DNA of 64,000 nt from NCBI GenBank assembly GCA_015956445.1, contig WIUZ02000005.1, positions 2,170,001-2,234,000 on the forward strand, written 5' to 3'. The number at the start of each line of letters is the position of its first letter. Within the stretch, counting starts at the first letter, position 1. A model generated the notes under the pieces. It was not told the origin of the DNA and ran no database searches. It worked only from the letters and a program-made list of their open reading frames with translations. Made by a program: the position numbers and the translations under genes. This DNA comes from Thelephora terrestris (taxonomy: Eukaryota > Basidiomycota > Agaricomycetes > Thelephorales > Thelephoraceae). This document shows positions 7,613 to 31,815 of this stretch, in pieces.

Positions 7613-8384
7613 GAGCTGGGCACATTGATTCGGGTCGGTGGTGGAACTGGACCCACAGTATTCCTAATGGGGATTGCAGCAGAATATGCTTATATAATCA
7701 GAAATATTGGGTTGTTTGAAATTGCAATTGAATTTCCAAAAAAGGAAATTTTGATGGCTTAGATAAGCAGGTCATGTGATTTGCTAAAAGCAATATTTGG
7801 GGGGATTATGTAAGTAGGTCATGTGACTTACCAAAACAGGGAGTTTTGATGGCTTATATAAGCAACTTAGGAAGGGTTTGGAATGAAATTACCCAAAAAG
7901 GAAATTCCTTTTTGGGTAATAATTTCCAAAATAGGAAATTCCTTTTTAGGTAATAATTTCCAAAATAGGAAATTCCTTTTTAGGTAATAATTTCCAAAAT
8001 AGGAAATTCTTTTTTAGGTAATAATTTCCAAAAAAAATTGAATTTTTAATTTTAGCAATTTCTATTTTTAGTAATTTTTTTTTAGTGGTTTTTACTTTTA
8101 GTGACTTCATTTTAGTATTACCTTTTCTTAGTATTTTCTTGTTAGTAAAATGGTTTTTTAGTAATTTCTATTTTTAGTGATTTCTATTTTTAATAATTTC
8201 CTTTTGATAATATTTGTTTTTAGTAGTTTTCATGTTCAATAGCTTCTGCTTTTAGTAGTTTCCATTTTTAGTAGTTTCTATTTTTAGTAGTTTCAAAATC
8301 ATTGTGTTATTCAGGTTACTTAATATAGCATATATCTGTTTGTGGTCCTCACTATAATCTAAAGAAGTCCACCTAACCTGACTT

Positions 8385-8665
8385 GGTCTAACATAACCTA
8401 GCCTAACCTGACCTAACCTAACCTAAAATAATCCACCTCACCTAACCTAACCTAACCTAACTTAACCTACCCTAATCTAACCTAATATAGTCCACCTAGC
8501 CCAACCTAATCTAATCTACCCAACTTAACCTAACCTAACCTAACCTAACCTAACCCTGACGTAATCCATCTGAACTAACCCAACATAGTCCATCTAAACC
8601 AACCTAACATAGTCCACCTAACCTGATCTCATGCAGTCCACCTAACCTGACATTGACTAACCTAA
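8385..8665. repeat. telomere-like CCTAA-rich tract, left arm of foldback 1
   Basis: Dense CCTAAC units interspersed with unit variants such as TAGTCCACCTAAC. The inverse tract (TTAGG-rich) is at about 9440-9785 in the right arm. The unit differs from a pure TTAGGG telomere. Confidence 0.8.
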
Positions 8666-11207
8666 CTTACTCTACAGGAGGGTTGGTCTAAACTTGAACA
8701 TAACCTGACTCGACCTCACCCAGCTTGCCAGTATATGGCTTGGGTTATTGAAACATAACATAAATTGTACTGTTTCATATTCCACATCCAACCACACTCA
8801 AGGGCACCTACTGTGCTGAACCTACAAGCTGGTGGACTTACAAGCCTGTAGATCTACAGGCTAGTGGGGATGTGTCTGTCTCTCAAACACTGGGATACCA
8901 CTGCACCCCATGTTCTGTGCTGGCTTATCCACTCAACTGGACCCGTAAGCCAGTCAACTCTTAAACTCATTGGTCCACAAATCCATGGACCCATAACACA
9001 CATAATACACCCAAGTATGTAGCCCATGGACCTATGCACCTATATCCCAACAAATATTTCTGTCACCCAAGTATTCTATGCCAGACCATAACTTGACCCA
9101 TACACTTGTCTGGCCTATTTGCCAGCTGGATATGATTTGTGGGCCAGTGAGTTTAAGAGTTGACTGGCTTACGGGTCCAGTTGAGTGGATAAGCCAGCAC
9201 AGAACATGGGGTGCAGTGGTATCCCGATGTTTGAGAGACAGACACATCCCCACTAGCCTGTAGATCTACAGGCTTGTAAGTCCACCAGCTTGTAGGTTCA
9301 GCACAGTAGGTGCCCTTGAGTGTGGTTGGATGTGGAATATGAAACAGTACAATTTATGTTATGTTTCAATAACCCAAGCCATATACTGGCAAGCTGGGTG
9401 AGGTCGAGTCAGGTTATGTTCAAGTTTAGACCAACCCTCCTGTAGATTAAGTTAGGTTAGTCAATGTCAGGTTAGGTGGACTGCATGAGATCAGGTTAGG
9501 TGGACTATGTTAGGTTGGTTTAGATGGACTATGTTGGGTTAGTTCAGATGGATTACGTCAGGGTTAGGTTAGGTTAGGTTAGGTTAGGTTAAGTTGGGTA
9601 GATTAGATTAGGTTGGGCTAGGTGGACTATATTAGGTTAGATTAGGGTAGGTTAAGTTAGGTTAGGTTAGGTTAGGGTAGGTTAGGTTATGGTAGGTTAG
9701 GTTAGGGTAGGTGAGGTGGATTATTTTAGGTTAGGTTAGGTCAGGTTAGGCTAGGTTATGTTAGACCAAGTCAGGTTAGGTGGACTTCTTTAGATTATAG
9801 TGAGGACCACAAACAGATATATGCTATATTAAGTAACCTGAATAACACAATGATTTTGAAACTACTAAAAATGGAAACTACTAAAAGCAGAAGCTATTGA
9901 ACATGAAAACTACTAAAACAAATATTATCAAAAGGAAATTATTAAAAATAGAAATCACTAAAAATAGAAATTACTAAAAAACCATTTTACTAACAAGAAA
10001 ATACTAAGAAAAGGTAATACTAAAATGAAGTCACTAAAAGTAAAAACCACTAAAAAAAATTACTAAAAATAGAAATTGCTAAAATTAAAAATTCAATTTT
10101 TTTTGGAAATTATTTTGAAAAAAAAATTCCTTTTTTGGAAATTATTACCTAAAAAAGAATTTCCTATTTTGGAAATTATTACCTAAAAAGGAATTTCCTT
10201 TTTGGGTAATTTCATTCCAAACCCTTCCTAAGTTGCTTATATAAGCCATCAAAACTCCCTGTTTTGGTAAGTCACATGACCTACTTACATAATCCTCCCA
10301 AATATTGCTTTTAGCAAATCACATGACCTGCTTATCTAAGCCATCAAAATTTCCTTTTTTGGAAATTCAATTGCAATTTCAAACAACCCAATATTTCTGA
10401 TTATATAAGCATGTGGGAATTTTTGGCAATTAAATGCCTTTTATTACATAAGCAGTCCCAGCTACCAAGCTGACCCACATCCTCGGTACCTGTATAATTG
10501 CCAGCTGTGATCTAATCAGTGAAGGGCTGATGGCCCAGACGCTCGGGAACAGCAACAAATACATTTCCTCCTGCAAGCCTACAGCACAAATATAAAGCTC
10601 AATCACCGACACACCAATTTAATTCTCAGGGATGATACAGACACAAGAATTATAAATTCTGAGCTGCAGCTGCTGCCTGGGTGAGTGAAGGGAGTGAGCC
10701 ATCAACGAAAGTATCGCTGTTCATGCGCACGTACCGGGGATCATAGGAGCTTAAGGGGATTCGCTTTCCACCCACAAATACGTACTCCTCTGTGTCTACC
10801 TCGGTTGGGGCCTCGGATCCAATGACCAGTCGGTCAACATCCTCAGGGCTACTATCTCTCGAAAACTAGGTCGTATTAGATATCAGCGAGAGGAATGCGA
10901 GTGGTTGAATCATCAACTTACCAGTGGCTCCTTTGAAACAGCGGCAGCATCATCGTCCAGATGCTCGAGTGAGGCAAGACGTGCCTCGAGTAAACAAATC
11001 TGGTCGGCCTTTGACAACGCCTTGGCTTGGCACTTCTTGGACGGAATACCTGCCTTGAGTTTAGCAGCTTCTGTCATGACAGGCGCTCCCAGGTTGGTAG
11101 TCTTGTTTTTTAGGCGAGTTCCAACCATGGAAAAAAAAACGGACTAAAGAGTGGTGAGTTGGATACCAAGATGTAGGACAGATGGAATAAGGAGAGTGGG
11201 GGATACG

Positions 11208-11797: not shown

Positions 11798-14739
11798 ATG
11801 GCAGGGAAGACGGAAGACCAGAGGCAATGGTGAAAAGAGGGGACAGGATGGAAGACAGGAGGCCGTGCGCGTGAGTTGGGATCAGAGTGAATGAGGCGGA
11901 GAAAAAAATCACGCCAAGTCCCACAAAAGTCCCACGTCCCACACTGGTGGCATCACTTTTGCGGCTCTCCCCTCACCACCTCTCTTTGACCTTGCGCACA
12001 GTTTGCCTCAATGGCGGCTGCCCCTTTCTCTTTTTTTATCTGTGGCGAATGCGGCAAGGTCTGTAGGTCTGGCCGCGGGTTAACTCAACACAGGTCGGTC
12101 CATCGCTCACTTCCTCAGCTCGGAAATCACCACCATTTTCATCGCGAATACCACCCACTACTCAACGGTCAGTAAATTCCACCCTCACCTCCTCTGATCT
12201 ATTCTAACTCTATGTATCTGAGAAAGGGACCCCCTGTGACTATCGTGGCTGTTTTCTCCCACCAGGCGCACCGCCATCGCCGCCGCCACCGAAGCTGTCA
12301 GCGTGCTGAATTTTTAACTTCTTTTTGAACCATTTTCACACCCAACTTTCGCCCACTTTCCCTATCTATACCCCTTTCTTATCTTATCGTTTCCCTTATC
12401 ACGAACTCACACGTCATCAAGGAACACAGACAAAGGCACAGATGATATTACACACGGACGCGCACACAACGAACAGCCAACGGAGTTGAATCCGCCCGGA
12501 CTCTATGGACGAGGACTAAGGAGTACAAACCCTAGTCGTCAAGACCTGGTCTGCCAGTACTCCTCAGCACTGGCAACCTCCTCCTCCGTCCCCTCCGAGA
12601 CATTCTCGTCGACTTCCTCGTCGACCATCTCGACGACCCGAGCTTCTTCCAGACGATGAGCTGCGACCAGCTGAACCTCGGCGCGCAGGCGGTTCCTCGC
12701 TGAATCGACCGTAGTCTGATCCAGAGTCCTCTGGACTGACCAGCCCTCCACTCTCTCGGTCAGTTGAGCCACCAGGCGAACGGCCTCCGCTGCACGCCGG
12801 ACCGACAAGAGCGTAAGGTCGGTTAAGCCGTTCACGTCGACGGACTCCACTGGAATCAACTCGCCGCGATCCACGCGACACTGCAACATCGTCGCGTCGG
12901 AATAGGACAGTGGACTCAATGTCTCCACCCTGGCGGACAGCGTCTGGATTACTGGGACGCATGCGGTGTGCTGGTCGAAGCGCCCCACGATAAGGAACCC
13001 AGCGACGAGCACGAATGGAACGTTGCCCACGCACCGGAGAGATCGATGGAGGTGGGACCGGAACGGCCACCTCGTTCTCCCCCGCGTACTCCAACTCCGG
13101 AGAACTACTAGCCGGGTTGACAGCAGTCTCATCGGACGTCTCGTGGACGATCTCCTCCCCACCGTCAGTATGCGCGGGTGTGCGGTACGACCCATCGGAA
13201 GCTAAAAAGGGATGTCAGTGGACAAGTCAAATATGTCAACCGACATCCCACCTATGGGAGAAGCCATCCGATCCGGAATCGACTCGTCCCCGGACTCGTC
13301 GCGAACCGCAGCCACCGAACGAGTACGGCAGTGGCACAACCGCTCACTCATCGATTCGACCCGAGCACCCAGCAACGGCAAGGCGTCGTCCAACGTGTCA
13401 ACCTAGAAGTGGCGTGAGCTCCCTTGGATAAAAGACCAGGAGAAGTCGCACCGACCTTGGTGTCGAGCTCGTTCAAGGCCCTTCGATGACGGTTGAGTCG
13501 TCGGTCGACCTCAATCAGGTCTCGTTGGATCGTGTCGTCCCGCTCCTTCAAGGACTCGACCAACCGATTGTGTTCTTCGCGCATCGCCAGCATCTCGCTC
13601 TCGAACGTCACGCAGAGCGTGTCGTTCATCAGCAAGAGCGTCTTCTTCATGTCCAACGCCTCCGAGTACATCCTACGGGCGTCGTCCTTCGCTTCCTTCA
13701 CCTCGCGCTTCAGTCGCTCGTTCTATAAGTCCGTCAGTGTTATCCCACAAGCGGGATGCACAGACCGACTCACCGCTTTCTGTTCCGTCCTCAGAAGGAA
13801 CCAAAGGCGGTGACCAACGGCTGCTGTGTAGTGTTGGGAGCGGGTCGCTCCAGGCCACCTTCCTTCCCCGTTCCCTAAGTCGTAGATCCCCATTCGCAGG
13901 AGCCCCCACAACGACGAAGCCACAGGAGTCTCGTATGGCATCCGTAACTCGGTGTTGAACGTGACCCCTCGCATCGACTCCTGCAGCTTGTGGTCGATCA
14001 AGTTGTGGTACCACAACTCGTCGTCCATAGTCAAATAGCTGGGAGGCTTGGCTATCGTTGCCTCCAGTTGTCGAGCATCCACCTTATCGGCAACCGCGAA
14101 GATCTACGAAAGCGTTGTCAGTGGTTGCCAGCAACGGCGACGCGTGACAACGCGCCTCTCGGTAACTAGGGTACTGTCAGGAACATGGTATTTTTAAACT
14201 TTTTATAACACGCTCCTTCTTCGAACTCTTCTTATCATTTCTTATGTTTTGAATGCTTCACACTCCTTATCCTTCACACCCATCATTCAAAACACACAAA
14301 CGCGCATACATTCACGGCAATACGGAACAACTGGCTATACAATGCTTATACAACGTCCTCAAAAGTCGACTCTATCTACGGCAGGCCTCATGGTCATCAC
14401 CCTTCCATCCCGGAGATCATAGTGCTGGCCCCTCCTCGCAAGGACCTCCCCGAACATGGCGTCACCATCTTCGGCACTCAGCTGAACGATTAGTTCAAGC
14501 CGATAGGAAGAGATGCCTTCGAGCGGACCGATCAGCCGCCCAGATGTCACCGAACTCTGGAACACCTGGTCCCACATCTCCATCACCGGGTGACTGCTCG
14601 TCAACACTATCGACGTAGTCGGCGAGCGACCCTCTGTCTCCCTCGTCGGATCCCTGGGCGGAATCCTGTCTTGCGAGTCGAAGCTGGTGGCGAAGCTGGA
14701 TCTCCGACTCGACCTGTCGGTAGGGCAATAGCTGCAGCT

Positions 14740-17700
14740 GAGAAAATATATTTCTCCAGTTAACAAGCTACCTCAGAAATAAATTTCTTCCAGTTAGGCC
14801 TAAGATTTACATTTGTTATCTTGTGGCATGCCACAATTGTAAATGTGCAATCCCAACCCAACCTATAGCCCATCGTCTCGGTCCAGTGACTGAGGTGGAT
14901 CCGTTGTTTTGGAGAGGGTAGTTCCAAATTGGGCTGGTGCCGACAGTATGGGTCTGCTGAGCATTGGGGGCTGCTTACATAATAATTGATGGCTTATATA
15001 AGGAGGTCATGTGACTTACCAAAAAGGAGATTTTTGATGGCTTACATAAGCAGATCACATGACTGAAAAAAGTGGATGTTGCTTATATAATCAGATCATG
15101 TGACTGTTCAAAAAGGGAAAGTTTTGATGGCTTACATAAGCAACTCAAAAATGATTTTGACATTGAATTTCCTTTTTGGGAAATTCTGATGGCTGACATA
15201 AGCAGGTCATGTGACTGAAAAAAGTGGGTATTGCTTATGTAATCAGGTCATGTGATTGACCAAAAAAGGAAAGTTTTGATGGCTTACATAAGTGTCTCAA
15301 AAATGCTTTTGGAGGGGTCTTTCCTAAAAAGGAAATTCCTTTTTAGGATATATTTGATGGATTACCAAAAAAGGAAAGTTTTGATGGCTTACATAAGCAG
15401 CACAAAAATGCTTTTGGCAAAAATTACCAAAAAGGGAAATTATATGCTAAAAAGCTCGGAAAAATCCCAAAAAATAACAAGAAAATTCCCACACATCTAG
15501 AAAGTGCCCAAAATGGTCAATTAATTCCCAAAATATCGAAAAAATGGTTTTTCTGGCTGGATAAATCCTGAAAAATTCCGAAAAAATTACCAAAAATTCC
15601 AGAATATGTATAAATATTTTATAAAAATTATTCTAATTTTTTAGTCCATTAAATAGCCCACAATTTCGATATTAATGTATTTTCTGCCCCTCAAAATTCC
15701 CAAAAAATAAATGAAAGTTGAAAAATAAAAATAAATTTATATCTTCATTATATCATAGAGTACAGACCTGTTTGTGGTCATAATCTACCCCCAAAACCAG
15801 TCATAGAATTAACCTAACCTAACCCTAACCCTAAACCTAAACCTAAACCTGCCCTAAACCTAACCTAACCTAACCCAACCTAACCCTAAACCTAACCTAA
15901 CCTAACCTAAACTTGCCCTAAACCTAACCTGCCCTAAACCTAACCTGCCCTAAACCTAACCTAACCTAACCTAACCTAACCTAACCTAACCTAACCTAAC
16001 CTAACCTAACACAACCCTGAACCTAAACCTAACCTAAACCTGACCTAGCACAAAGCCTAAATCTAAACCTAACCTGGCCTTATCTTATCTTATCTTATCT
16101 TATCTTATCTTATCTTATCTTATCATGTCTTACCCAGCCTAAACCTAACCTAACCTAACCCAGCCTAGCCTAACATGACATAGTCCACTTAAATTAGTCC
16201 ACCACAGATCACCCAACCTAACCTGAAGTGGCCCACCTGACCAGTCTGAGGCAACTTGATTTGATCTTATCTAATCAGCTGCTATGTTATCTAACCTTAA
16301 TTCATATACCCTAGCTAACCAACATCTAACCCAATCTCACCTGGCTCACCAGCACGTAACTGGGCTACAGGAACGCACTGCGAGCTGCACCATCCATATC
16401 CTATGTCCAATCGTCACTCAAGCACAAAAACTGTGGTGGACCTACAAGTCAGTGGACCCATAAGCCCACAGGCCCACATAGACTGCTCACTCAGTGTTGA
16501 CATCTGTTGTCCAACCTCATCCACATACCACCCTCACCCTGCAGTCTGTACCAGACTGCAACTTCATCACTACTGAAATTCAACCACCTGGCTGAACTTG
16601 CAAGCCAGATTGATATAGACTACCAGTTATGCATCCATGGATTTGTAGGCCTGAGAGTACATGAGTTCAGCCAGGTGGTTGAACTTGAGTTGTGGTGAGG
16701 TTGTAGTCTGGCACAGAACACAGGGTGAGGGTGGTATGTGGATGAGGTTGGACAACAGATGTCAACACTGAGTGAGCAGTCTATGTGGGCCTGTGGGCTT
16801 ATGGGTCCACTGACTTGTAGGTCCACCACAGTTTTTGTGCTTGAGTGACGATTGGACATAGGATATGGATGGTGCAGCTCGCAGTGCGTTCCTGTAGCCC
16901 AGTTACGTGCTGGTGAGCCAGGTGAGATTGGGTTAGATGTTGGTTAGCTAGGGTATATGAATTAAGGTTAGATAACATAGCAGCTGATTAGATAAGATCA
17001 AATCAAGTTGCCTCAGACTGGTCAGGTGGGCCACTTCAGGTTAGGTTGGGTGATCTGTGGTGGACTAATTTAAGTGGACTATGTCATGTTAGGCTAGGCT
17101 GGGTTAGGTTAGGTTAGGTTTAGGCTGGGTAAGACATGATAAGATAAGATAAGATAAGATAAGATAAGATAAGGCCAGGTTAGGTTTAGATTTAGGCTTT
17201 GTGCTAGGTCAGGTTTAGGTTAGGTTTAGGTTCAGGGTTGTGTTAGGTTAGGTTAGGTTAGGTTAGGTTAGGTTAGGTTAGGTTAGGTTAGGTTAGGTTA
17301 GGTTAGGTTAGGTTAGGTTTAGGGCAGGTTAGGTTTAGGGCAGGTTAGGTTTAGGGCAAGTTTAGGTTAGGTTAGGTTAGGTTTAGGGTTAGGTTGGGTT
17401 AGGTTAGGTTAGGTTTAGGGCAGGTTTAGGTTTAGGTTTAGGGTTAGGGTTAGGTTAGGTTAATTCTATGACTGGTTTTGGGGGTAGATTATGACCACAA
17501 ACAGGTCTGTACTCTATGATATAATGAAGATATAAATTTATTTTTATTTTTCAACTTTCATTTATTTTTTGGGAATTTTGAGGGGCAGAAAATACATTAA
17601 TATCGAAATTGTGGGCTATTTAATGGACTAAAAAAATTAGAATAATTTTTATAAAATATTTATACATATTCTGGAATTTTTGGTAATTTTTTCGGAATTT

Positions 17701-18533
17701 TTCAGGATTTATCCAGCCAGAAAAACCATTTTTTCGATATTTTGGGAATTAATTGACCATTTTGGGCACTTTCTAGATGTGTGGGAATTTTCTTGTTATT
17801 TTTTGGGATTTTTCCGAGCTTTTTAGCATATAATTTCCCTTTTTGGTAATTTTTGCCAAAAGCATTTTTGTGCTGCTTATGTAAGCCATCAAAACTTTCC
17901 TTTTTTGGTAATCCATCAAATATATCCTAAAAAGGAATTTCCTTTTTAGGAAAGACCCCTCCAAAAGCATTTTTGAGACACTTATGTAAGCCATCAAAAC
18001 TTTCCTTTTTTGGTCAATCACATGACCTGATTACATAAGCAATACCCACTTTTTTCAGTCACATGACCTGCTTATGTCAGCCATCAGAATTTCCCAAAAA
18101 GGAAATTCAATGTCAAAATCATTTTTGAGTTGCTTATGTAAGCCATCAAAACTTTCCCTTTTTGAACAGTCACATGATCTGATTATATAAGCAACATCCA
18201 CTTTTTTCAGTCATGTGATCTGCTTATGTAAGCCATCAAAAATCTCCTTTTTGGTAAGTCACATGACCTCCTTATATAAGCCATCAATTATTATGTAAGC
18301 AGCCCCCAATGCTCAGCAGACCCATACTGTCGGCACCAGCCCAATTTGGAACTACCCTCTCCAAAACAACGGATCCACCTCAGTCACTGGACCGAGACGA
18401 TGGGCTATAGGTTGGGTTGGGATTGCACATTTACAATTGTGGCATGCCACAAGATAACAAATGTAAATCTTAGGCCTAACTGGAAGAAATTTATTTCTGA
18501 GGTAGCTTGTTAACTGGAGAAATGTATTTTCTC
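14740..18533. mobile_element. Foldback element 2, 3.8 kb, arms about 1.86 kb, MULE-like 10-bp TSD
   Basis: The arms (about 14740-16598 and 16664-18533) are near-perfect inverted copies around a 65-bp spacer, complementary out to the very ends (GAGAAAATATATTTCTCC and, read inward from the right, GAGAAAATACATTTCTCC). The flanks are a perfect 10-bp duplication AGCTGCAGCT at 14730-14739 and 18534-18543. It is the same family as foldback 1 (shared end motif, shared AAATGTGCAATC and CCTAA tracts). No coding potential is credible: the two 82-codon frames at 15252 and 18021 are mirror copies. It inserted into an alanine-codon run of the inner element's gene. Confidence 0.9.
15805..16170. repeat. telomere-like and CTTAT microsatellite tracts, left arm of foldback 2
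   Basis: CCTAA, CCCTAA and CCTAAA units are followed by about nine CTTAT units (16078-16125). The right arm repeats the same array inverted at about 17100-17465 with fewer GATAA units, so the arms differ in copy number. Confidence 0.8.
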
Positions 18534-20823
18534 AGCTGCAGCTGCTGGGTAGGGACGGTGGACCCGATAGCGGAACTCTCGTCCCCCACCTCGACCAGAC
18601 TGGTCACCATCCGACTCAACTGGACGCGGGTATGGGTTAGCCGACGGAGCCATGCGATGAGCAACACGGCGTCGAGAGCGTTTGCAACGCTGCCCTGTTG
18701 TCACAGGACGTACCTCAATGGCCCTCGGAACATCTTCGGCCCGATCGACTTCCATGACCTCATCCTCGATCTTCACCAGCTGACCGATCGGCTGCAGCGG
18801 GCAGCGCCGACAGTTCTCCTTGTCGGACTCGGCCAACGTAGAAGCCGGAGCCGGAGTCGGGACGGGAACCGCGTTCTCTATCGGAGGTGTCGCATAGGAC
18901 GACGGGTTAGGCGATGGGAGTACCACCTCGTCGGCGTACTCCAGCTCAAACGGAACGTCGGCAGTCCCCTGACCAACCAACTTCGGACCCTCCTTACAGT
19001 TGCAGGTCTTATCCTGCAAGGACGCGACCTGCGCCGTCAACACCGCCACCACGTCCTCGAGCTGTTCAGTCTAGAAGAACCTCTCAGTCATTGCATAAAC
19101 CTGCAAAGGCTGAAAGCACCTTTTCGTCCCTTCTAGCCAGCGCTCCCTTAATGTTGTTGTCCCTGACCTTCAGCCCGGCGATCAACTCTTGATGGTTTGC
19201 AACCATCGCCTCCAACGCTTCGTTCGTCCCCTGCTGGAAGGCGGCCAGAGTCTCCTTCATCAGAAGACCCTCCGCTGACAGACGAAGGACGTCTGCCTTC
19301 GCCTCCTTCACTTCGCGCTCCAATCGTTCAACCTAGGCAGTTTGATTAGTCGAGAGTCATACTCGAATATTCAAACAGAGAACCTACCCAGCTCTCTCCC
19401 TCTCGAACGAGCGACCACAACAGCGTAGTGGCGGCAGTGGCATGGCGGACGGCCCGAGGAACAGTTGCCCCGTGCTCCAATAGGTCCTGGTCGTAGATTC
19501 CCCTCTGCAGGGTGAACCAGAGCTCCTTCTTGATCGGGTGCTCTAATTCCCCGAACCTACCCCTCATTTGGAAAATCACCTTCTCGGCGATCATGGACCG
19601 GACCCAGAGCTCGTCGTCCCAGGTCAACCCCATCAAATGTGGGATCGTCTCCCTGAGACGTTCGGCGTCCACCTTCTTGACGACCTCCAAGATCTAGAAG
19701 CCGTTAGCTCAACGTCTAAAGCCGATGCTGTACGACCTGTACCTAGAGGAAGGTGTTAGTGCAAACACACGAAGCTCTAGACCTCCCCCATACCTGGTCA
19801 TCAGTGGTATAGGGAACCCCCGCCTCATTGGCATAGGTCTTGCGGTTGGCGGTACGGCGATCGATGCGAGAGATAGTGGAGATGCCGTTGGCGACTTTGT
19901 AGGTATGGTTGTTGGGGAAAGACATGTTGGTAAGATGATGGGGAAGTTGCTGGTGTTGCTGATCAAGGATGGCTCCAAGAAGACGTCCTTCTTATAGCCT
20001 AGATCGGTGATCCTTCACGTGACCTACCTCGACGAACCTCATTGGTCCGGGTCACATCAACTTCCGCCCCTGTACCATCATCGTTGGCTTACTACATCAA
20101 GCTGACACCTCGGCCCGCGGGACGGCCTTGGAAGAACTTCGTTCCGGAACGCTTAGAACGCGCGCGCACTAAAAATAGGTCTCAAGACCCTGATGACTCC
20201 TTTTATGACATCATGAACCCCTTTTTACGACCCCTCATGACTTTACGATTACGATCAACCCTGGACCCTGATCACACACGTGGACAGTCACATCACAGTC
20301 TCCTAACCGGAGGAAGGACTCGCCGCTATTCGGAAGCATCGCCTTAGGATCCTTCTGGTTAGCTCAGCGCATGTGGAGTAGCCGTTAGCGTGAAACGCCG
20401 GCGAATCTGTAATCCCTTATGTCCCATGAGTCTAGGCCCACGCTCCTCATGTTCGGACGCACGATAAGGTTGCCACTAGTCCGTGATGCTGTTACCGCCT
20501 ACAGACAACAAGGGATGTTGTATGGTCTCTATCTTTGGCCTCTCCAAAGGAAGCATCCAAGAAGATTCTCACCTGGCCCTTGGGTGTGATCCCCAGGTAC
20601 GAACTTTCATGACCCCATGCCCCTCTTTCTTTTAGGACTAGTGTTATCTTTACCCCTATGTTTCATGCAGACATTCCTTATCTTTTATGCAATCCTTCAC
20701 ACGCTAGTAAGGCCCTTTGTCCTTTATTCTCCCACGCGTCACCTTTGTTCGCTTCCCTTACTTAGCGTTCTCACACTCCTTATCTCCCTTTGTTCGGACT
20801 TGATAAGGGTATATTAGGGTATT

Positions 20824-20852: not shown

Positions 20853-23620
20853 AGCAACTGTGGCTGCATCGTAGTACCTTAGTTTTGTTACCTCAGGAAA
20901 TCCTCTGCCCTTCTCAGCCCAGTTGCAGTTAAGGACAAGTCAGAGTTTCTTGTTTGATCCAAGACATCCCCATCTGCTCTCCCTCCCGCTCTGCGCATCG
21001 TCTGTGCCTCGTAACTATAGAACCTCAGCGTTCATCCTAGAACACCTCGAGCGTCCAGTCGATCACCTGGTGGAGTCATCAATCCTATTGTGGAGATAAA
21101 CCCTTGTGTGTTAAACCGAACGAAGTACGGTTTAGGTTGGGTTTCTCCTTAGGATCTCGACCTGACTTGTAGTGACCTCGGACAACCTACCGGAAGAATA
21201 GAGACGTGATCGTTCTCTCACAAGCTAGTTGGACTAGTGAGTACTCTGCGGAGTCGGCTCAGTGCACTGGTAGTTGTTGGGGTAGAGTGGCCCTGACAGG
21301 TACGCCACGTTGGCGTTCGGCAGGAAGTAGCCCTTATTCTGCACGGATCGAGGATCCGCGGACTCGATGGTGGCAGTGCTATTCTCAGTACGGAAGACAC
21401 GGTCGGAGATCATGGGCATGTTGAGTAGTTGGTTGGTGGGATTGTTGGTTTGGGAAGAAGGGAGTTTGATGAATCCAACGGCCGGTTCGCACTACGCTTT
21501 ATCTGACCATCGACAGCGCTCGCGTCCTATTCGCCATTGGATCGGACCATCGTTCCACCAGTCCAGACTCTTCATACATTCGCCCTCGACACTCACGCCC
21601 CACTCGGCCTTTTGTTGTCCCGATCGAACGAGCTGACGCGTCGTTCTCTCATTGGTTCGTCCTCACATGTGATATTTGTTCTTTGTCATTCCTTTCCCAC
21701 ACGACGTCATGACCCCTTTTTCGTTCTCTCACGAACCCTGACCCATTAGTCATTCTTTTATCGTTTCTATTCTATAACCCGGGCCGCTTACTGTTCCCGC
21801 TTACTCTCGGCCCTTCTTTACTCCGAGTTATTATTGGATAGGGTTATCTATATCCCGGCCACTCTCCTATATAGATACCAGTGGAGTAGCTGAGGACTCC
21901 CCATCTTTGATATCTCGGGAAGTCCTCTTCTCCTTGCAGCATCGGTGTATTTGCTGTAGGCCACTGAAGAGCTTATCGAGTAACTCTCTGAACACGTTCG
22001 CTCTCCTCTCTCTCTCAGCCTTGCGCTAAGAATCGGCGAACGCGCTTACGAAAAGGAGTTCCTTGCCGCTCTCTTTATCAAGCACCAGTTTGAGGCGCCA
22101 TCCTCGGGCTCTTATCTCTGCCCTCCGAAGAAGATAGGGATTGATCTGATAGAGGCTCGGCACTCCTGCTGTGAATTCGGACAACCTACCGGAGAACGCT
22201 CGTCCATCGCGTTTTGGACCACGTAGACTTTGGGTGGATATAGGGAAGTCGTTCCCCCTTTGCCCCATTGTTTCTTGTTGGTTGGAGTTGCGACTCATCA
22301 ACAGCACTGGTACCTGAAGGGCGAAGAGTGGCCCTGACAGAAGCCAAAAGATGACTGGTCTCCCTTTTCCTCACAAGCAGGATTTGAACTGGCCAACATC
22401 CTTTACCTCAGAGCACACCTCTCCCAGTCCCTCATCAACGAAATCCTTGAGCTCTGGAGTGCTACACTCGTTCCCCACCGCGACCTTCCCCCTATCATCG
22501 ACCATCGCGATCTCCACGCCCAGATCGATGCAATCAAATTAGGCAACATTCCATGGAGGTCTTACACCGCGCAGTACCAGTGGCTCCGTCCTGATGACGG
22601 CCCAGCACCAGAGTGGATGCGAACCAAATACCAAATCTGGTACCGCGATCCCAGACAGGTCATCCACCATCTCCTCGGAAACCCTGAGTTCACTTCGGGT
22701 ATTGACTACGTCCCACACAAAGACTTCAAAGATGGAGAACGGCAGTACCACGACTTCATGAGTGGTGACTGGTCCTGGGAACAATGCGTAAGACGGCCAC
22801 CATTTAACATTGAAGCTCGCTGACTGTTATCTACAGGATATCATTGCAGAAGACCCCACGACTCATGGCGCCATGTTTGTTCCCATCATTCTTGGCAGTG
22901 ACAAGACGACCGTCTCCGTCGCAACCGGCCAGCAAGTTTATCACCCAGTTTATCTCTCAGTTGGCAACGTACACAACAGCCTTTGACGAGCGCATAAGGC
23001 GGCTCTTGTCCTCATCGGCTTCCTCCCAATTCCCAAAGGTATTGTATTTGCCTCCAATTGTTTCACCCCAAACTGACACGACCCAAGGTTCCTGCCAGGA
23101 CGGAAAGAGTGACGTCTTCCGTGACTTCCGTCGACGTCTTTTCCACGGGTGTCTTGTGGCGATGAACGGCTCTGTCAAGGCGTATATGACCACCTGGGAT
23201 ATTGTTCGCTGCGCCGACGATCACTTCCGCCGCGTGATCTATGGCATCGGTCCGTACATCGCCGATTATCCTGAGCAGTCGACCGCTGCAGGGACTGTAT
23301 ATGGATGGTGCGTGACGTTGGTGCTCCTTTTATAATTCATTTTTATATAGTCTAGAATCAAGCCGGTGGGGGGACGCGACACGCAGGGATAATCCCGAGC
23401 GGAGAGAGAAATTTGTGATTTTTAGATCTGGTTCAAGATCTGAACTCGATCAGAGCTCGTGCCTTGGAGAGAGGTCCCCCCACCGTCTTGTGAATTTTGT
23501 ATGGGGGAGGGCTCATCACGGTCACGCGCAGTGACTGGTGACTGATGACGGCAGTTACCGGTCACGACTTCTATATTTTCCTAATATTTACGTTGCCGCT
23601 GTCGCCGTTCCTTCGACTGA

Positions 23621-26600
23621 ATGAGGCGACATCAAGAATCACATGAGGCCGCAAATCAACGAAACCTCGACCTCTTGGAGCAAGCGCGCAAGTCAAGAGA
23701 AGGCTATGATGGAGAGAATACGCGCGAAGCGTTCAGAGCCGCGGTGAAGGCAGCGTTCAACGGCAACGAGCCGCGAAAATTCCAGCTCGATGTTGCGGAG
23801 GCCATGACACTCGGCCTCGACTCAACCGTCATCGCGGGTACAGGTTCTGGGAAGACTCTCCCTTGGGCAATACCGTTACTATTGGACGAAAATAAGAACA
23901 AGGTAGTTCTTGTCATCTCGCCTCTAAAGGCATTGCAAAAAGAACATGTAACATTCTTAGTTATCCCGCCCATTCCGGGGCTAATTGATATAATAGGCTT
24001 CGTTTTTTAGGAGTTTAGGCATCGCCGCTGTACCAATCAACGGGGACACCTGGAAGAGGGAGGAGATTAGGCGGGTAAGTCACCGCACACATCCTCGTCG
24101 TTACAGGTAGGAACCGCCTAACGTTGAAAACAGAATGTCATCGAGAGAAGATATCGGGTCCTCCTTGCATCCCCTGAGATGTGTTTTGTGAACGTGGAGT
24201 TCTCAAAACTACTGCGGGACGCGACTTGGTCGAAACACACCATGTTTGTTGTCATTGACGAGGCTCACTGCATCACGCAGTGGGGCCGGGAGTTTCGAAC
24301 GCAATATTCAACATTGAACAAACTCCGGTCCTATTTTGCGCCTCAAACACCCCTCCTCCTAACATCCGCAACACTCCCTCCGCAAACTCTCTCTGACATC
24401 CGTGACTCGCTTGAGGTTCAAGACGACCGTTCGTTCGATTTGAACCTTGGAAACGATCGCTCGAATATCACGCCGATCGTCTGGCCGATGAAAGGGGGCA
24501 AGGACGACTTTGGATCTCTCAATTTCGTGCTAAGTGGCGGGGATATTCGCAGGACCGTCATCTATTTCAATGAAAAGGAGACAGCACGAAAGGCGTGCGA
24601 GTATCTTCAGTCGCTTGTTCCCACGAAGCAATCTCAAATCGATTTCGTTCATTCCAGTCGATGCTCTGGCCCGCAAAAACGGGTACTGAAACAGTTTCAG
24701 GCTGGAGAGATCAATATTCTCTGTGCAACGGAAGTCGTTGGGATGGTAAATTCCGTTTTGTCCTCGGCTTGCAGGTGCTGACCACGTCGTCAACAGGGAA
24801 CGGACCTCAAAAATGTTACCCTCGTCGTTCAATACATGGTCCCATCTTCTCTATCGGTATGGGTCCAACGTGCTGGGAGGGCCGGGAGGTCAGGTCTCCC
24901 ATCTTGCGCGGTCCTACTATATGAGCCATCTGTCGTCCAGCGGGTCAACACACAAGACGACGAAGATGATGATGTTGAAGAGGCGGAGCAAGAGTGGTCA
25001 GGAGACGACTTTAAGAAGAGAAATGTGGAGGACAGTTTGCGAGCTTATGTCATGGAAGAGGAGTGTCGTCGGGCATTGACGGACAAGTATTTCGACAACC
25101 CGCCCCGCGACAAAACTGGTACGTCTCGAGTAACCTTTGTGAAATGTGTTTTTGAGCTTCTTTTCAGTCTATTCAGTTCCATGTTGTGACAACTGTCTGC
25201 AAGCTAACGACGCCGAAGCAAAACTCTCAATTATCAAACTACTACATGCTGTGCTCGACTCCAATAAAGCTGCGACCACACCGACACTCAATGATGAAGA
25301 TGATATTGGCAATGTTGGGAACGAAGATACACTATTGGTCCCGGACGGCGAGGAGAGCATGTAAAGTCACGACATCATTGAAGGCAGTGATGACGGGATA
25401 GAAGTTGATGATCCTGAAGACGGCCAAAGTGGTACACAACAAACTTGTCGAAAAAAGCGGCAGGGGGAGCGACTTGCCGACTGTCGGGCCTTTCTCGTGA
25501 ATTGGCGACATGAATGCTGGACGCGCAACTACTGCAATCAACTGTGGGGACCCAATCTGGTCCTGCCGGATTCGCTGGTTACCAAGTTCGCAACCGGGAG
25601 TTGGGTGAAGACAAAAGAAGATGTTGCCTTCGAATTCAGCAGTTGGGTGTGGGCAGATGAACATTCAGAAGAGGTATTGAGAGGGTTGGCGAAGATTGAT
25701 GCTCGGCACGATGAAGCGAAGCAGGCGGCAGAGGCAGAGAAGCGACAAAAGAAGGCAGAGGAGCTAGTGGAACGACAACGCTTGGCAGAAGAAAAATGTC
25801 GCTCGGTTGAGAGGCGAAAGGCAGAGGCGAGGCAGCAGAAAGCCAGAGAGAAGGAAGAGGCGAGGCAGCGGAAAGTAGTAGAGAGAGAGGAGGCGATGAG
25901 GCGGAAAGTGGCAGAGAGAGAGGAGGCGACAAAGCAGAAAGCAGCAGAGAGAGGGGAGGCGAAGAAACGGAAAGCTGAGGAGAAGCTGAGGAGACAGGAG
26001 GAGAAAAAGCGACGGAAGCAAACAGAGGATGAAGACGTGCAGCATGCTGAGTCCGCGGCAGAGGAATCCAGAGAGCGCCAGTGTAGTGCAGGGAACGACG
26101 CCACATTCGGGAACGACGCCACATTCGGGAACGATGCCACAACTGCTCAAGTTCCTTCGCCAGACCCACCCCTTCCGTCTTGTCCACCTCGTCCTCGCCC
26201 TCGTCCAACAAGAAAGCTTCCACCGGCGCCTTTCCCAAACCACAACGGGCCTGGCACGGACGCCGCACTAACCATTACATCTCCCTCTCCGTCTACCTCT
26301 ACCCACCCGCCTCCACCCATGACACCTCCACCTCGTCCCCGGCCTCAGCCAACGAGACGGCTACCACCAATAACCAGCCAGGAAAATTGGATTGCACCCT
26401 CGTTTGGCATACCAACTGACAACGGGTTTGCACCAGCACAGTATCAGACACTCGTTAACATTGTGCCAGCTGCCATGTCTCCCCTTGCATCAATCTATCC
26501 ACACCCATCAGCAGTTCATCTACCTCTCAACGGATTCACTGCTGGTTCACCAATGGTCTCAGGTAACCCGCACCCAAGTGGGAACCTGCAATTCTTTGAC

Positions 26601-26789
26601 CAGGCACTCTCTCGTTACACTGGCGATGGCAGCATCTCCCATCCGGCACCAACCTCATGCAACCCAGCCACACTGGAGGAGCCAACTATGTTGCAACACT
26701 CTGTAATGTCCACCCCACCCAGCCGTTACAATAGTGGTAATCATGGTGAGTTTTTCTCAGCACTTTCTCACTGCTGGTACACCCGCTGA
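23621..26789 (+). CDS. RecQ-like DEAH helicase with long coiled-coil/proline-rich tail
   Basis: Helicase motifs in order: Walker A TVIAGTGSGKTLPW, motif Ia region VLVISPLKALQKEH, Walker B VVIDEAHCITQWG (DEAH), motif III LLLTSATLPPQ, motif V ILCATEVVGMGTDLKN (across an intron), motif VI VWVQRAGRAGRSG. A RecQ zinc-binding block (EECRRAL..VPCCDNCLQAN) follows. Then come an acidic linker, a K/E/R-rich coiled coil (about 25680-26030) with tandem GNDATF repeats, and a proline-rich tail. Likely 3'-5' DNA unwinding; in this setting it belongs to the transposon. Several introns are clear (GTAAGT near 24076, GTAAAT near 24746, GTACGT near 25120). The first intron boundary is not in phase by eye, and an in-frame TAA lies at 25362-25364, so the copy may be inactive or may encode a shorter helicase. 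Confidence 0.8.
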
Positions 26790-26827
26790 CATGTGGCGCA
26801 GTTTAATGTTGTTAGATCCATAACATA

Positions 26828-29411
26828 TCACTCTATCTCAAATAAAATGTCTTCGCTTTCGCTCTCTGACCACAACTGCTTTTCTGACACGTTGCGTTCT
26901 CGCCTCTTGTGCCATTTTTGGATTACTTTCCCACTCGCCAACGCCTCTTCACCCTTCTGGCAGATGTCAGTGAATGTTTCCTTGGATTTCCGTACCTGTT
27001 TCACATGGATTTCTGAGATGTTGTACGACGCCCGAAGAAGTGTGATGTCGTTTTCATAGGTTGGTGAGGAATGCTTGCCATATCTCAAGTAATTGTTCCA
27101 GTGATATTGGAAGTGGTCTTTGACTTTTCGTAGGGTAGGGATTGCTGCAGAGATCCGCTTGATGTACTCCCATGTGACCCCTGGACCTGCGGAATCAAAA
27201 GTGTGCTGCCAATGGGTCAGTAGCCCGTAAGCCATCTTCTTTGCCTTTACTGACCTTTATATCTCTCACGCCATGCTCTTGCCCCAGGTCAATTGGGTAG
27301 AACCCATCACGACGGCCTGAGTTATTGACAAGCCAGCCTCTCGTTCGGACAAATTCTCTGTGGGGCAGATAAGTCATTAAAACAAACATAAACAGTCCCA
27401 ACAAAAACACTCACTTTATATTGTCTGACCACTCACGATTTAAACCCTGCAACAATTCCAATACCTCAATTGCGTATTTGTTGTTCCTGCCTCCAACAAA
27501 GCGCAACAGCAACCGAGGAAGCATATCTTCTATTCTGCCGACATCCCCCATCTTGATCGCCGTGTCAAGCTCCAAGTATTCCAAGAGATCACGGTTGAAC
27601 TGTGCCATTTGCTTCAAGAGTTGATCTTGTGAGTCCTCTTCCTCACTCCTCAATTCAACGACGGCGCTTGTTGATGCAAATCCTCCATAGATCTTCTTCG
27701 CTGTCACCACCAACCGGTCTGGTTCCCAATCCCGGAGTTCATTTAACTCCTCAACCCCCGCCACCTGCTTCCACAAGTCACGGAAGCGGGCCGTCGCAAC
27801 CTCCTTCAACGCCTCCTCGAATGCATAGTGGAAAGTTCCTTGTGTTGCAGTGTTGGCCAACCCCTTCTTCCCCATGATGTCAAACGCATGCGAGAACCCA
27901 TATGAACCTTTCTTTCCGTAGTATTGAGAATGGAGTGATGTTGCAAATGCCATTTGGAGATGGAACCAGCCAAAGCTGGGAATGAGGTAATCCATTCGCT
28001 CGAACGAATTGTCGTCATGTGAACGGAAATTGACCAAGCCCTGTAGCCGTGAGACCGTGAGCTGATCACCTGCCCACACGATTACACGGTTTAGCCCTGT
28101 CTCCTTCATCTCCTCCAACGAATCGAGGCCTAGATATTTGTAGGTCTCAGATATGACCTGGTCGTTCCCTTCGTAAGTGGATTCGCATATGTGGGCGGTA
28201 GGTAGCATGTACTGAATGGTTTGATTTTCTCGACCGCAGGGTAGCTCTTGCACAGGTGGTGGGGGATCAAGAACCACTTCGCCACGGTGCTTGTAGGTGT
28301 CGACATCGAAATCAGGGGAATTGAGGAGGAAACAGAGGACCTTATACTCCATTTGTCTTGTTACGCGTTCAGCTCCAAGCATTGAAAGCTTGACAACGTC
28401 TCGTGCCGTGATGGGGTTCGCCCGTCCGATCTTCCGTTGCTCCTGTAAGGCGCGGTTGTCCAACCGCATGTTCTCCGTCCCCGGGATGAGGTAGATTGTT
28501 GACGCTGTGCCACTGTCGAAGGTAGTTTGCCGGTCAACTCGTTGTTCAAATACCCGAAACTGACGGTTGATGTTGTCATGTGAGAACAGGAAGAGGAGTT
28601 TGAGGTCATGGATTTGACGTCTCAACTCCTTGTTTGCGTGCTCGGCGAGGGTATCGATCCCTTGAAAGGCCCATTTCTGACTCATCGTGAGTCCGAGGCT
28701 TGACAACGTGTCAAGTGCTTTGGCCGGTAACCCGCATGCTTTGAGATAGACGGTGAGGAACTTGTGAAACTGGTTTGCGTTGTGGTTCCTCGAGAACGCC
28801 AGCTGACATATCATAAAAACCAATCTCTGTGATTGAAACAATGAGTCCAGAATTCTTGTTCGTCACGATAAAGATACCTTTCTCCGGTCAGATTTGTTTC
28901 TTTTCTCCTGCTGACCGGTTTGTGACGCTGTCTTCAAAATTTTCCAAAGAGTCGGGGCTGCGGGTTTCAGCTTCAACACCATCTCCTCTTCCGTGACCGA
29001 GGCGAGGTTATCTTCAGTGAGGTCTTCCCCAGCACAACGAAGGTGGTCTACAACCATGTCCATCTCTTTCTTGATGAGACCGCCGACAGAATTGAGGGCG
29101 TGGGTCTCCAGCCTGGTGCGTGCTGACTTCGACTTCTTCCATCTGTCGAGGATTTGCGGAAGCTCAACGCTATTCATCAACAGGCTCCTCTGGTACTTTG
29201 CCACACTATCTTCCGTTACGGCGCTACACCCCTAACTCAACGCATCCAAGAAGATAGGTAGGTCCAGCCCAACCTCGTCAATGCACTTCAAAACCGCCGA
29301 GACTCGTGTTTTCAGGTCATCGTCGCCTCCTATCGCGTTGCGTCGATTCGTCATGTGCGCCTGTACCCCTTTCGGTTCGTCGGGTTTGGCGCCGGGTTCG
29401 TCGAGGTCCAT
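26828..29411 (-). CDS. DUF6589 domain protein, candidate transposase of the RecQ element
   Basis: Exons run from the ATG at 29411 (MDLDEPGAKPDEPKG) to the stop at 26828, with introns near 28827-28877, 27357-27413 and 27187-27253. Typical DUF6589 blocks: SLLMNSVELPQILDRW, VFMICQLAFSRNHNANQFHK, FLFSHDNINRQFRVFEQ, LNRVIVWAGDQLTVSRLQGL, FGWFHLQMAFATSLHS, DGFYPIDLGQEHGVRDIK and WEYIKRISAAIPTLRKVK. The conserved aspartates in HDN and AGDQLT, with a later glutamate, could be an RNase-H-type triad; this is my inference, not established here. It is convergent with the RecQ-like gene (38 bp between stops) inside one transposon. An in-frame TAG at 29232-29234 stands where relatives usually have tryptophan, so this copy is probably not fully functional. 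Confidence 0.75.
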
Positions 29412-31815
29412 AGTGTGTTAAAATTCTATTGTGATGGGAAACATAGTTTATTTGGAACAAAATAAAATAAAATTCATTTTTCGTCGAAGAACGAGTTTAG
29501 GGTTTTTTGTATTTCCGTTCTGGGACGTTTCTGATTGATGTGACCGTGATGGGCCGTCTCCCTAACAAAGTTCCCCAGACAGTCCGGAGTACTCACCCTG
29601 AGCGCAGCGTGTGAGAGTTTTTCAAAAAAAAATTGAAACCCGAACCGTCTGGATCGAGACTAATTTTTATATATTGACCCATGTCCTCAGGTGTGATGCA
29701 GACCCCACGGACCTCGATGGATCACTTGCCGAGCTTCGCACGCTCAGCCAGTTCCTAACGCTGCTTGAAACCGAGGATGAAGACTCCCTATGGTTTGGCC
29801 ACGGCATTGTGCCTGACTTCCTGGTTCGTCCCGCGCTGCAGCAGATCAGCAGCCGACTAACCATCAACTCCAGCCATTCACCACTAAATTTCCGCGCGCA
29901 GATATATATGAGCTTCTCACCCCAGATCTCCTCCATCAGGCCATCAAAGGAACGTTTAAAGACCACCTTGTTACGTGGGTTGAAGATTACCTCAAGTTGA
30001 CGTACGGCGCATCTCGGGGGTTAGAGATCCTTAACGAGATTGATCAAAGGTTTGATCTCTCGTTCACCACCCACTCACTGCATCTAATGTCTTTCTCAGA
30101 ATTGCTCTGGTCCCCCTATTCCCCGGCCTTCGCAGATTCAAGCAAGGGCGAAACTTCCAACAGTGGACCGGAAATGATTCCAAAGCTTTCATGAAGGTGT
30201 TCGTCACCTCGCTGGAAGGTTTCGTTGCTGTCGACATCACCAAGGCTCTCACAGCCTTCCTGGAGTTCTGCTACATTGCGCGCCTCGACACCGTCACTGA
30301 AACCTCACTTCATGCCCTCGACGATGCCCTCAGGAAGTTTCACCACTACCGCAAGATCTTTCAGGAGAGTGGTGTACGTCCGACTGGATTTTCCCTCCCT
30401 CGCCAACACGCCCTCACACATTATCATCATCACATTGAGAAATTTGGTGCCTTGAACGGCTTATCCTCTTCTATCACGGAGTCGAAGCATATCGCCGCCG
30501 TCAAGATACCTTGGCACCAATCAAGTCGTTATGAGGCTCTCAACCAAATGCTTACCATCAACAGCCGGAACGACAAACTCGCTGCCGCACACACTGACTT
30601 CTCCACACGTGGCATGTTGAATGGCACCTGTCTCGGTGAGGCGCTCAAGCAGCTTCGCAGCTCCCTCGAGGATGACACCAGTGTGGAGGACGACGACGAT
30701 CTGGACGGCGACGACGGCCAAGACCTTGACGCCGACGAGGATGAGGAACCAACAGGTCCAGTTGATGGGCCAGCTACATCGAGTGATGTATCTCTCGCCC
30801 ACAAACGAGGTAGGTTTTGTTTCTCTTATGTCTTGAACTGTTTCTCATGACAGCACAGCACGCGGGTATCCCCTCGCTTCATTCCAGGCGCTCGGCCGAC
30901 ATATAAAGCAGGAAAATCTTGAAGCCCTTGTCCGGGTTTTCCTGTTCTATCAGGAAAACCCTGCCTTCGTTGGAACCCCTCCCCTCACTACCTGTCCAAC
31001 CCTCGATTCCGTCGAAGGCATATCTGTCTTCCATTCTGCCAAGGTCACCTTCTGTGCCCCAAGCAACAATTCCGGCACGGGTGGGTTGTATCGTGAAACC
31101 ATCCGTTCCACCTCGAGGTGGCTCACTAGTGGTATCATGGCTCCCCGTCGGGATTGCATCGTCATTGCCACCGGGTCAGATATAGCTGGGGTAAGGGGTC
31201 TGGATGTTGCGAGGGTCCATATGTTCTTTTCGTTCGTGTTCAGGGATGAGCTGTTTGAGTGTGCCCTTGTTCATGAGTTCTGCAAGACCTTCACTGACCC
31301 GGACCCGGACAACGGCCTGTGGGTTTTCGAACCGGACTACAGTGCAGATGGATCCAGGATCATGTCTGTCGTACACATTGACTCCATCGTTCGTGCCGCG
31401 CATCTGTTGCCTGTTTTCAAGGACAGCACTCCCATTCCGAGGGAGATCAACTTCACCCATACGCTCGATATATTCAGGGCCTTCTACCTTAGCAAGTATA
31501 TAGATTACCACGCTTTTGAAACTATGTGCTAGGCTTTTGTTGTTTGTACCCCATTGACCCCGAATCTTATTTTCTGGTTGCCGATCATTTTATTTCTTCA
31601 TTATCGTGCACGTTTTCGAGTGAATTTGAGTGAACTCAACCACCGGCAATTATCATAAAATAAGTATAAAAAAATCTGCACAAGTTCGAGTAATCAAAAT
31701 AAGTGAAAATAAACGCGAACAACTAGCTGCCTCTTTTACTGATGTAACGAGTTTTCCCTTCGGGCTGGACTCCTCGGGAGCCCTCGCGTTGTACTGGTTC
31801 ACCGTAACTCCGAAA

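Follow-up and report, generated by a model that had tools for sequence, protein, structure and literature searches.

What kind of mobile element unites a RecQ-like helicase gene with a gene for a DUF6589 protein (Pfam PF20231), and which of the two proteins would move it, is the question raised by a 6,315-bp segment lodged in a Plavaka intron of the agaricomycete Thelephora terrestris. The segment lies in the window (the whole 64,000-nucleotide stretch of DNA analysed here) on contig C45 (2,530,842 bases) of a genome of 40.6 Mb in 60 contigs. Our results probably place it in the AcademH lineage of DNA transposons, with DUF6589 as the predicted DDE transposase and the RecQ-type helicase as a putative helper. 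Coordinates of the features discussed below are collected in Table 1.

Table 1. Features of the Thelephora terrestris element, related insertions and an associated repeat (window positions unless a contig or locus is named).
Feature	Position	Strand	Remarks
AcademH-like DNA transposon (likely assignment), 6,315 bp	23348..29662	.	ends and duplication; empty site
Left copy of 9-bp target-site duplication	23339..23347	.	ATTTTTATA
Right copy of 9-bp target-site duplication	29663..29671	.	ATTTTTATA
Left terminal inverted repeat, imperfect	23348..23365	+	TAGTCTAGAATCAAGCCG
Right terminal inverted repeat, imperfect	29645..29662	-	TAGTCTCGATCCAGACGG, read inward
Plavaka intron harbouring the element	23308..29690	+	59 nt when empty; GT at 23308, AG at 29690 (by hand)
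RecQ-like SF2 helicase gene, with introns	23621..26789	+	3' end approximate
Helicase landmarks	ATG 23621; GTGSGKT 23837; DEAHC 24257; QRAGRAGR 24866; CDNC 25185	+	
DUF6589 (PF20231) gene, predicted DDE transposase	26828..29411	-	BJ322DRAFT_1107483 (P0007)
Predicted catalytic Asp 1	28575..28577	-	SHDNIN, strand beta-1
Predicted catalytic Asp 2	28065..28067	-	AGDQLT, end of beta-4
Predicted catalytic Glu	27276..27278	-	DLGQEHGV
Insertion 1	window element		6,315 bp; duplication ATTTTTATA
Insertion 2	C12:2421045-2426936		5,892 bp; duplication GGATCCTAG
Insertion 3	C56:1084055-1084948		894 bp; duplication GCAGATCAT
Insertion 4	C4:718097-718881		785 bp; duplication GTTCTAGCG
Insertion 5	C45:52689-52894		206 bp; duplication GCCTCGAGG
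Insertion 6	C34:833492-833736		245 bp; duplication GGATGCAGG; left end starts TATTCT
Copies of the 248-aa repeat frame	L046 8986-9729; L043 8615-9358; L045 1776-2519; L047 7208-7783		

The inverted ends (TAGTCT...) agree at 12 of 18 positions by hand count and are similar, not identical. With the element removed and one copy of the duplication retained, the host intron measures 59 nt. Two reading frames of the left flank match Plavaka PF18759 in a Pfam scan, and the two frames scanned on the right (30056-30850 and 30837-31532) match no Pfam family. An empty site was found at C23:1588213-1588442, an uninterrupted Plavaka copy identical to the joined flanks at 230 of 230 bases (100%) with a single copy of the duplication; the left flank matches C23 at 99% identity over 448 bases, and a second uninterrupted site, C56:633733-633960, shows 93% identity to the joined 230-bp flanks. 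This direct comparison of filled and empty sites suggests a recent insertion.

The genome contains six independent insertions with both ends, each flanked by a perfect 9-bp duplication (6/6) and all six duplications differing in sequence. The one on C12 came from a scan for inverted ends that had to be flanked by perfect direct repeats 8-10 bp long, the other five from the ends themselves, and pairs sharing flanks (C45:52689 with C12:1555327, and C34:833492 with C28:33272) were counted once. Scanning the genome with the end pattern gave 17 matches versus 1 for the reversed control. Five ends (C60:657336, C3:138502, C5:799033, C59:1400487 and C45:311892) have no visible partner within 1.5 kb, as judged by perfect duplications at L058, L061 and L070 and by end patterns only at L063 and L068; C7:478038 and C8:663407 consist of right-end sequence only. 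A candidate pair of ends on C59 (426031/440670) was left uncounted, with one mismatch in its 9-mer and a poor second end. Taken together, the empty site and the six insertions confirm what the initial annotation had read from a single copy, namely a 6,315-bp segment with similar ends and a perfect 9-bp duplication in an intron of normally 59 nt, and the TAGTCT-like ends and perfect duplications common to all six bear out its view of the segment as one transposon unit.

The second full-length element, on C12 (3,455,736 bases), carries RecQ on the plus and DUF6589 on the minus strand in the same convergent order as the window element. Both of its gene models are open (RecQ, 811 codons; DUF6589, about 835 codons), the annotated DUF6589 protein, P0001, has 817 residues, and its RecQ is 58% identical to that of the window; BJ322DRAFT_1000129 is a DUF6589 protein on C12, as BJ322DRAFT_1107483 is on C45. 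The window copy is probably not autonomous, as the first exon of its DUF6589 gene contains an in-frame TAG (29232-29234); an in-frame TAA in the RecQ frame (25362-25364) may lie inside an intron. The short forms with similar ends were likewise inserted precisely with 9-bp duplications. One of them, a 206-bp derivative containing neither gene, matches the window element's ends at 100% over 128 bases and 98.7% over 78 bases, and is so nearly identical that the window family was likely mobilised recently.

As to gene content, a helicase with PF00270 and PF00271 (SF2, DEAD/Helicase_C) converges on DUF6589, and the seven element reading frames scanned contain no further Pfam family above cut-off and no XPG domain, in keeping with the earlier description of these two as the sole genes. 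For the first 627 of the 811 residues of the C12 helicase, the top NCBIfam model is recQ_fam (E 3.5e-49, yet below the curated cut-off) and the best PDB matches are RecQ and BLM (E 4e-32 to 1e-27); with the DEAHC and CDNC motifs, the latter followed by a K/E-rich tail in the window gene, these matches argue for a RecQ helicase core. Pfam RQC, HRDC and RecQ zinc-binding domains gave no match in the same 627 residues or in the whole of P0128 and P0151; RQC and HRDC are not present in every RecQ member. PADLOC matches of the N-terminal part to DpdF and Cas3 probably reflect the shared helicase core.

For DUF6589, AlphaFold models of two proteins (pLDDT 88.6 and 91.5) both match DDE transposases best, with the P element, Hermes, Transib, RAG1 and Tn5 in the top VIA rows, and thereby predict an RNase-H fold. 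Three acidic residues are conserved in alignment A1 (P0001 numbering): D264 in 55 of 58 sequences, and D434 and E681 in 58 of 58 each. Their placement, judged by the model strands and the VIA end-points, is compatible with a D/D/E site, which they are predicted to form; the HDN and AGDQLT aspartates singled out in the initial annotation would be two of its three members. Fold matches and predicted catalytic acids thus make DUF6589 the likely transposase of the element, as had been proposed. When PDB sequences were searched, the DUF6589 profile matched nothing up to E 10; in BFVD its best match is a hAT-like Pandoravirus protein (E 0.0045). At least 306 relatives of PF20231 were found in one search; one scan of IMG/VR gave 70 pattern matches, 0 confirmed, and a search for longer proteins fusing DUF6589 to a helicase or nuclease gave 14 matches, in none of which precomputed Pfam domains added anything to DUF6589. 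At 1286 aa, P0247 of Mycena venus is unusually long, and it is diverged as well; the domain (593-1061) is preceded by some 590 N-terminal residues that match no Pfam family.

If the two genes form one unit, they should travel together. The T. terrestris genome has DUF6589 matches at seven places and RecQ-like matches at ten (query, an exon of the window's helicase gene). The initial annotation, which would fall if the two genes were usually unlinked, largely survives this test: six of the seven DUF6589 loci have a convergent RecQ at a distance of up to 50 kb and five at up to 30 kb, but only three at up to 10 kb. If the ten RecQ matches, with hand-entered positions, are simply placed at random, 0.043 of 7 are predicted at 50 kb and 0.009 of 7 at 10 kb. 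Nested repeats separate the two genes on C59. C12 and C16 each contain a second, diverged DUF6589, with three aligned pieces 97-99% identical, and the distant convergent RecQ matches of these contigs show 96.3% identity over 794 bp; since both genes are near-identical between the contigs, they were copied together, either within an element that later took up insertions or as part of a larger duplication. Around the diverged DUF6589 loci we also observed dispersed repeats, about 78-94% alike, bearing a 248-aa frame (TEELENVVAVLTAQV...CNC...; 192 aa in L047), of which the two copies scanned (L043 and L046) match no Pfam family. One RecQ match, G000 (C7:197162-197797), 48% identical to the window's, lies on a contig without any DUF6589 match; it may be a remnant left on its own or a copy that has been domesticated.

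In other genomes, at least 19 of the best 88 RecQ matches (P0121-P0208) share a contig, as called by eye from equal contig sizes and not from genome maps, with a DUF6589 protein among the 127 listed. This is a lower bound, since the main search listed 120 of its 306 DUF6589 matches and the number of candidates was capped. Locus tags are visibly consecutive in just two pairs, PAXINDRAFT_12087/12088 and NLJ89_g10340/10341; on contigs of 5-8 kb the two genes are probably adjacent. Across 20 pairs, RecQ and DUF6589 distances are correlated (r 0.874; 0 of 9,999 permutations), a correlation to which host phylogeny can add, and the nearest neighbour is the same for both proteins in only 10 of the 20. 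These comprise the 19 same-contig pairs minus P0006/P0121, dropped since half the helicase is missing from P0121, plus two Thelephora pairs; P0046 was used in a pair where P0049 was equally possible.

Three of the features that mark AcademH are found in the element: a 9-bp duplication and an SF2 helicase, with XPG, the nuclease of AcademX, absent from the frames scanned. AcademH was reportedly defined by Kojima in 2020 (Mob DNA 11:15). According to later accounts, AcademH comprises low-copy elements of Basidiomycota, Ascomycota and Mucoromycota, and DEAD and Helicase_C domains are attributed to AcademH, KolobokH or Helitron elements (PMC10799480); our element likewise encodes a helicase, makes 9-bp duplications and is present at low copy number in a basidiomycete. 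It is therefore likely an AcademH member, by comparison with published descriptions rather than transposase sequences. Fungal Academ copies with PF00270 and recQ_fam, often annotated as host genes, have been described (PMC6416283) and resemble the present case in that a transposon gene passes for a host RecQ/DEAD helicase, whereas their transposase domain is not called DUF6589 in the passage concerned. KolobokH also joins a RecQ helicase to a fungal transposon (PMC9587614). RecQ is thus an established transposon gene already in print for Academ/AcademH (PMC6416283, PMC10799480) and KolobokH (PMC9587614), and the initial annotation's notion of newly seen cargo falls away. What is added here is a likely function for DUF6589, the kind of transposon itself probably not being new. 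The term DUF6589 was not found in the literature searched, and the fungal transposases of Kojima 2020 are possibly DUF6589 proteins that do not bear the Pfam name.

The element entered the Plavaka intron precisely, with duplication of 9 bp of target. By analogy with cut-and-paste DDE enzymes, DUF6589 would bind the TAGTCT ends, cut them and join them to the target at a 9-bp stagger, and RecQ would unwind the element ends or repair intermediates. Such a role of the helicase may explain why duplications are long in AcademH (9 or 10 bp) and shorter in AcademX (3 or 4 bp), which bears a nuclease; the difference has been related to helicase versus nuclease (PMC10045372). Cut-and-paste and replicative movement are both compatible with the data, and nothing separates them.

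Could DUF6589 instead define a superfamily separate from Academ, a P/hAT-related DDE transposase whose partnership with RecQ is independent of AcademH? The best fold matches are the P element and Hermes, with which DUF6589 would share, according to the models, the RNase-H fold and an insertion of helices that precedes the final acidic residue; its conserved His after beta-5 (GWFH) recalls hAT transposases, which have a CxxH motif. The scanned DUF6589 proteins are tied to no other Pfam family above cut-off, and no non-fungal name occurs among the matches listed, although the protein search finds only relatives sharing exact words and 120 of 306 matches were listed. Identity to the P element and Hermes is about 9% in structural alignments, P element and hAT duplications are 8 bp, and no RecQ is known from either group. 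Against a separate superfamily stands the occurrence in a fungus of a RecQ/DEAD helicase together with a 9-bp duplication, a combination published for fungal Academ/AcademH elements. We therefore regard a separate superfamily as unlikely. A bolder version, in which such a P/hAT-fold superfamily is bound to a dedicated RecQ that sets the 9-bp offset or allows replicative transposition, seems quite improbable; if it were true, its two halves would be represented by hundreds of fungal proteins now called 'hypothetical' (DUF6589) or 'Bloom syndrome'.

Assignment to AcademH with DUF6589 as transposase must also be weighed against an accessory role of DUF6589, the transposase being RecQ-associated or supplied by another element. 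The transposase activity of DUF6589 rests on prediction, and the 206-bp derivative has such ends with neither gene; against this stand the predicted fold and D/D/E placement, and among the seven frames of the element that were scanned none matches another nuclease family. Helicases, to our knowledge, do not join DNA ends. An accessory role is accordingly very unlikely. A KolobokH element, suggested by RecQ helicase and fungal host, has a negligible probability: KolobokH makes 4-bp TTAA duplications and its transposase domain is followed downstream by RecQ (PMC9587614), whereas here the genes converge and the 9-bp duplications vary in sequence at six insertions, on which ground this option was rejected.

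With DUF6589 as the likely transposase of an AcademH-like element, PF20231 gains a testable function; a RecQ or Bloom-syndrome label on a fungal gene calls for caution, since many genes so annotated probably belong to transposons. Why a DNA transposon should retain a helicase could be studied with the open C12 element and the short derivatives with similar ends. In Agaricus bisporus var. burnettii, subtelomeric RecQ helicases that lack extra domains have been described (PMC7473861); telomere-linked RecQ genes of fungi may perhaps descend from such transposons. Finally, the window also contains two long, near-perfect palindromes, at 7686-10412 (2.7 kb) and 14730-18543 (3.8 kb), the latter with outer arms of 913 nt (100% complementary) and inner arms of 521 nt (97%), which are perhaps foldback-type elements or inverted duplications.
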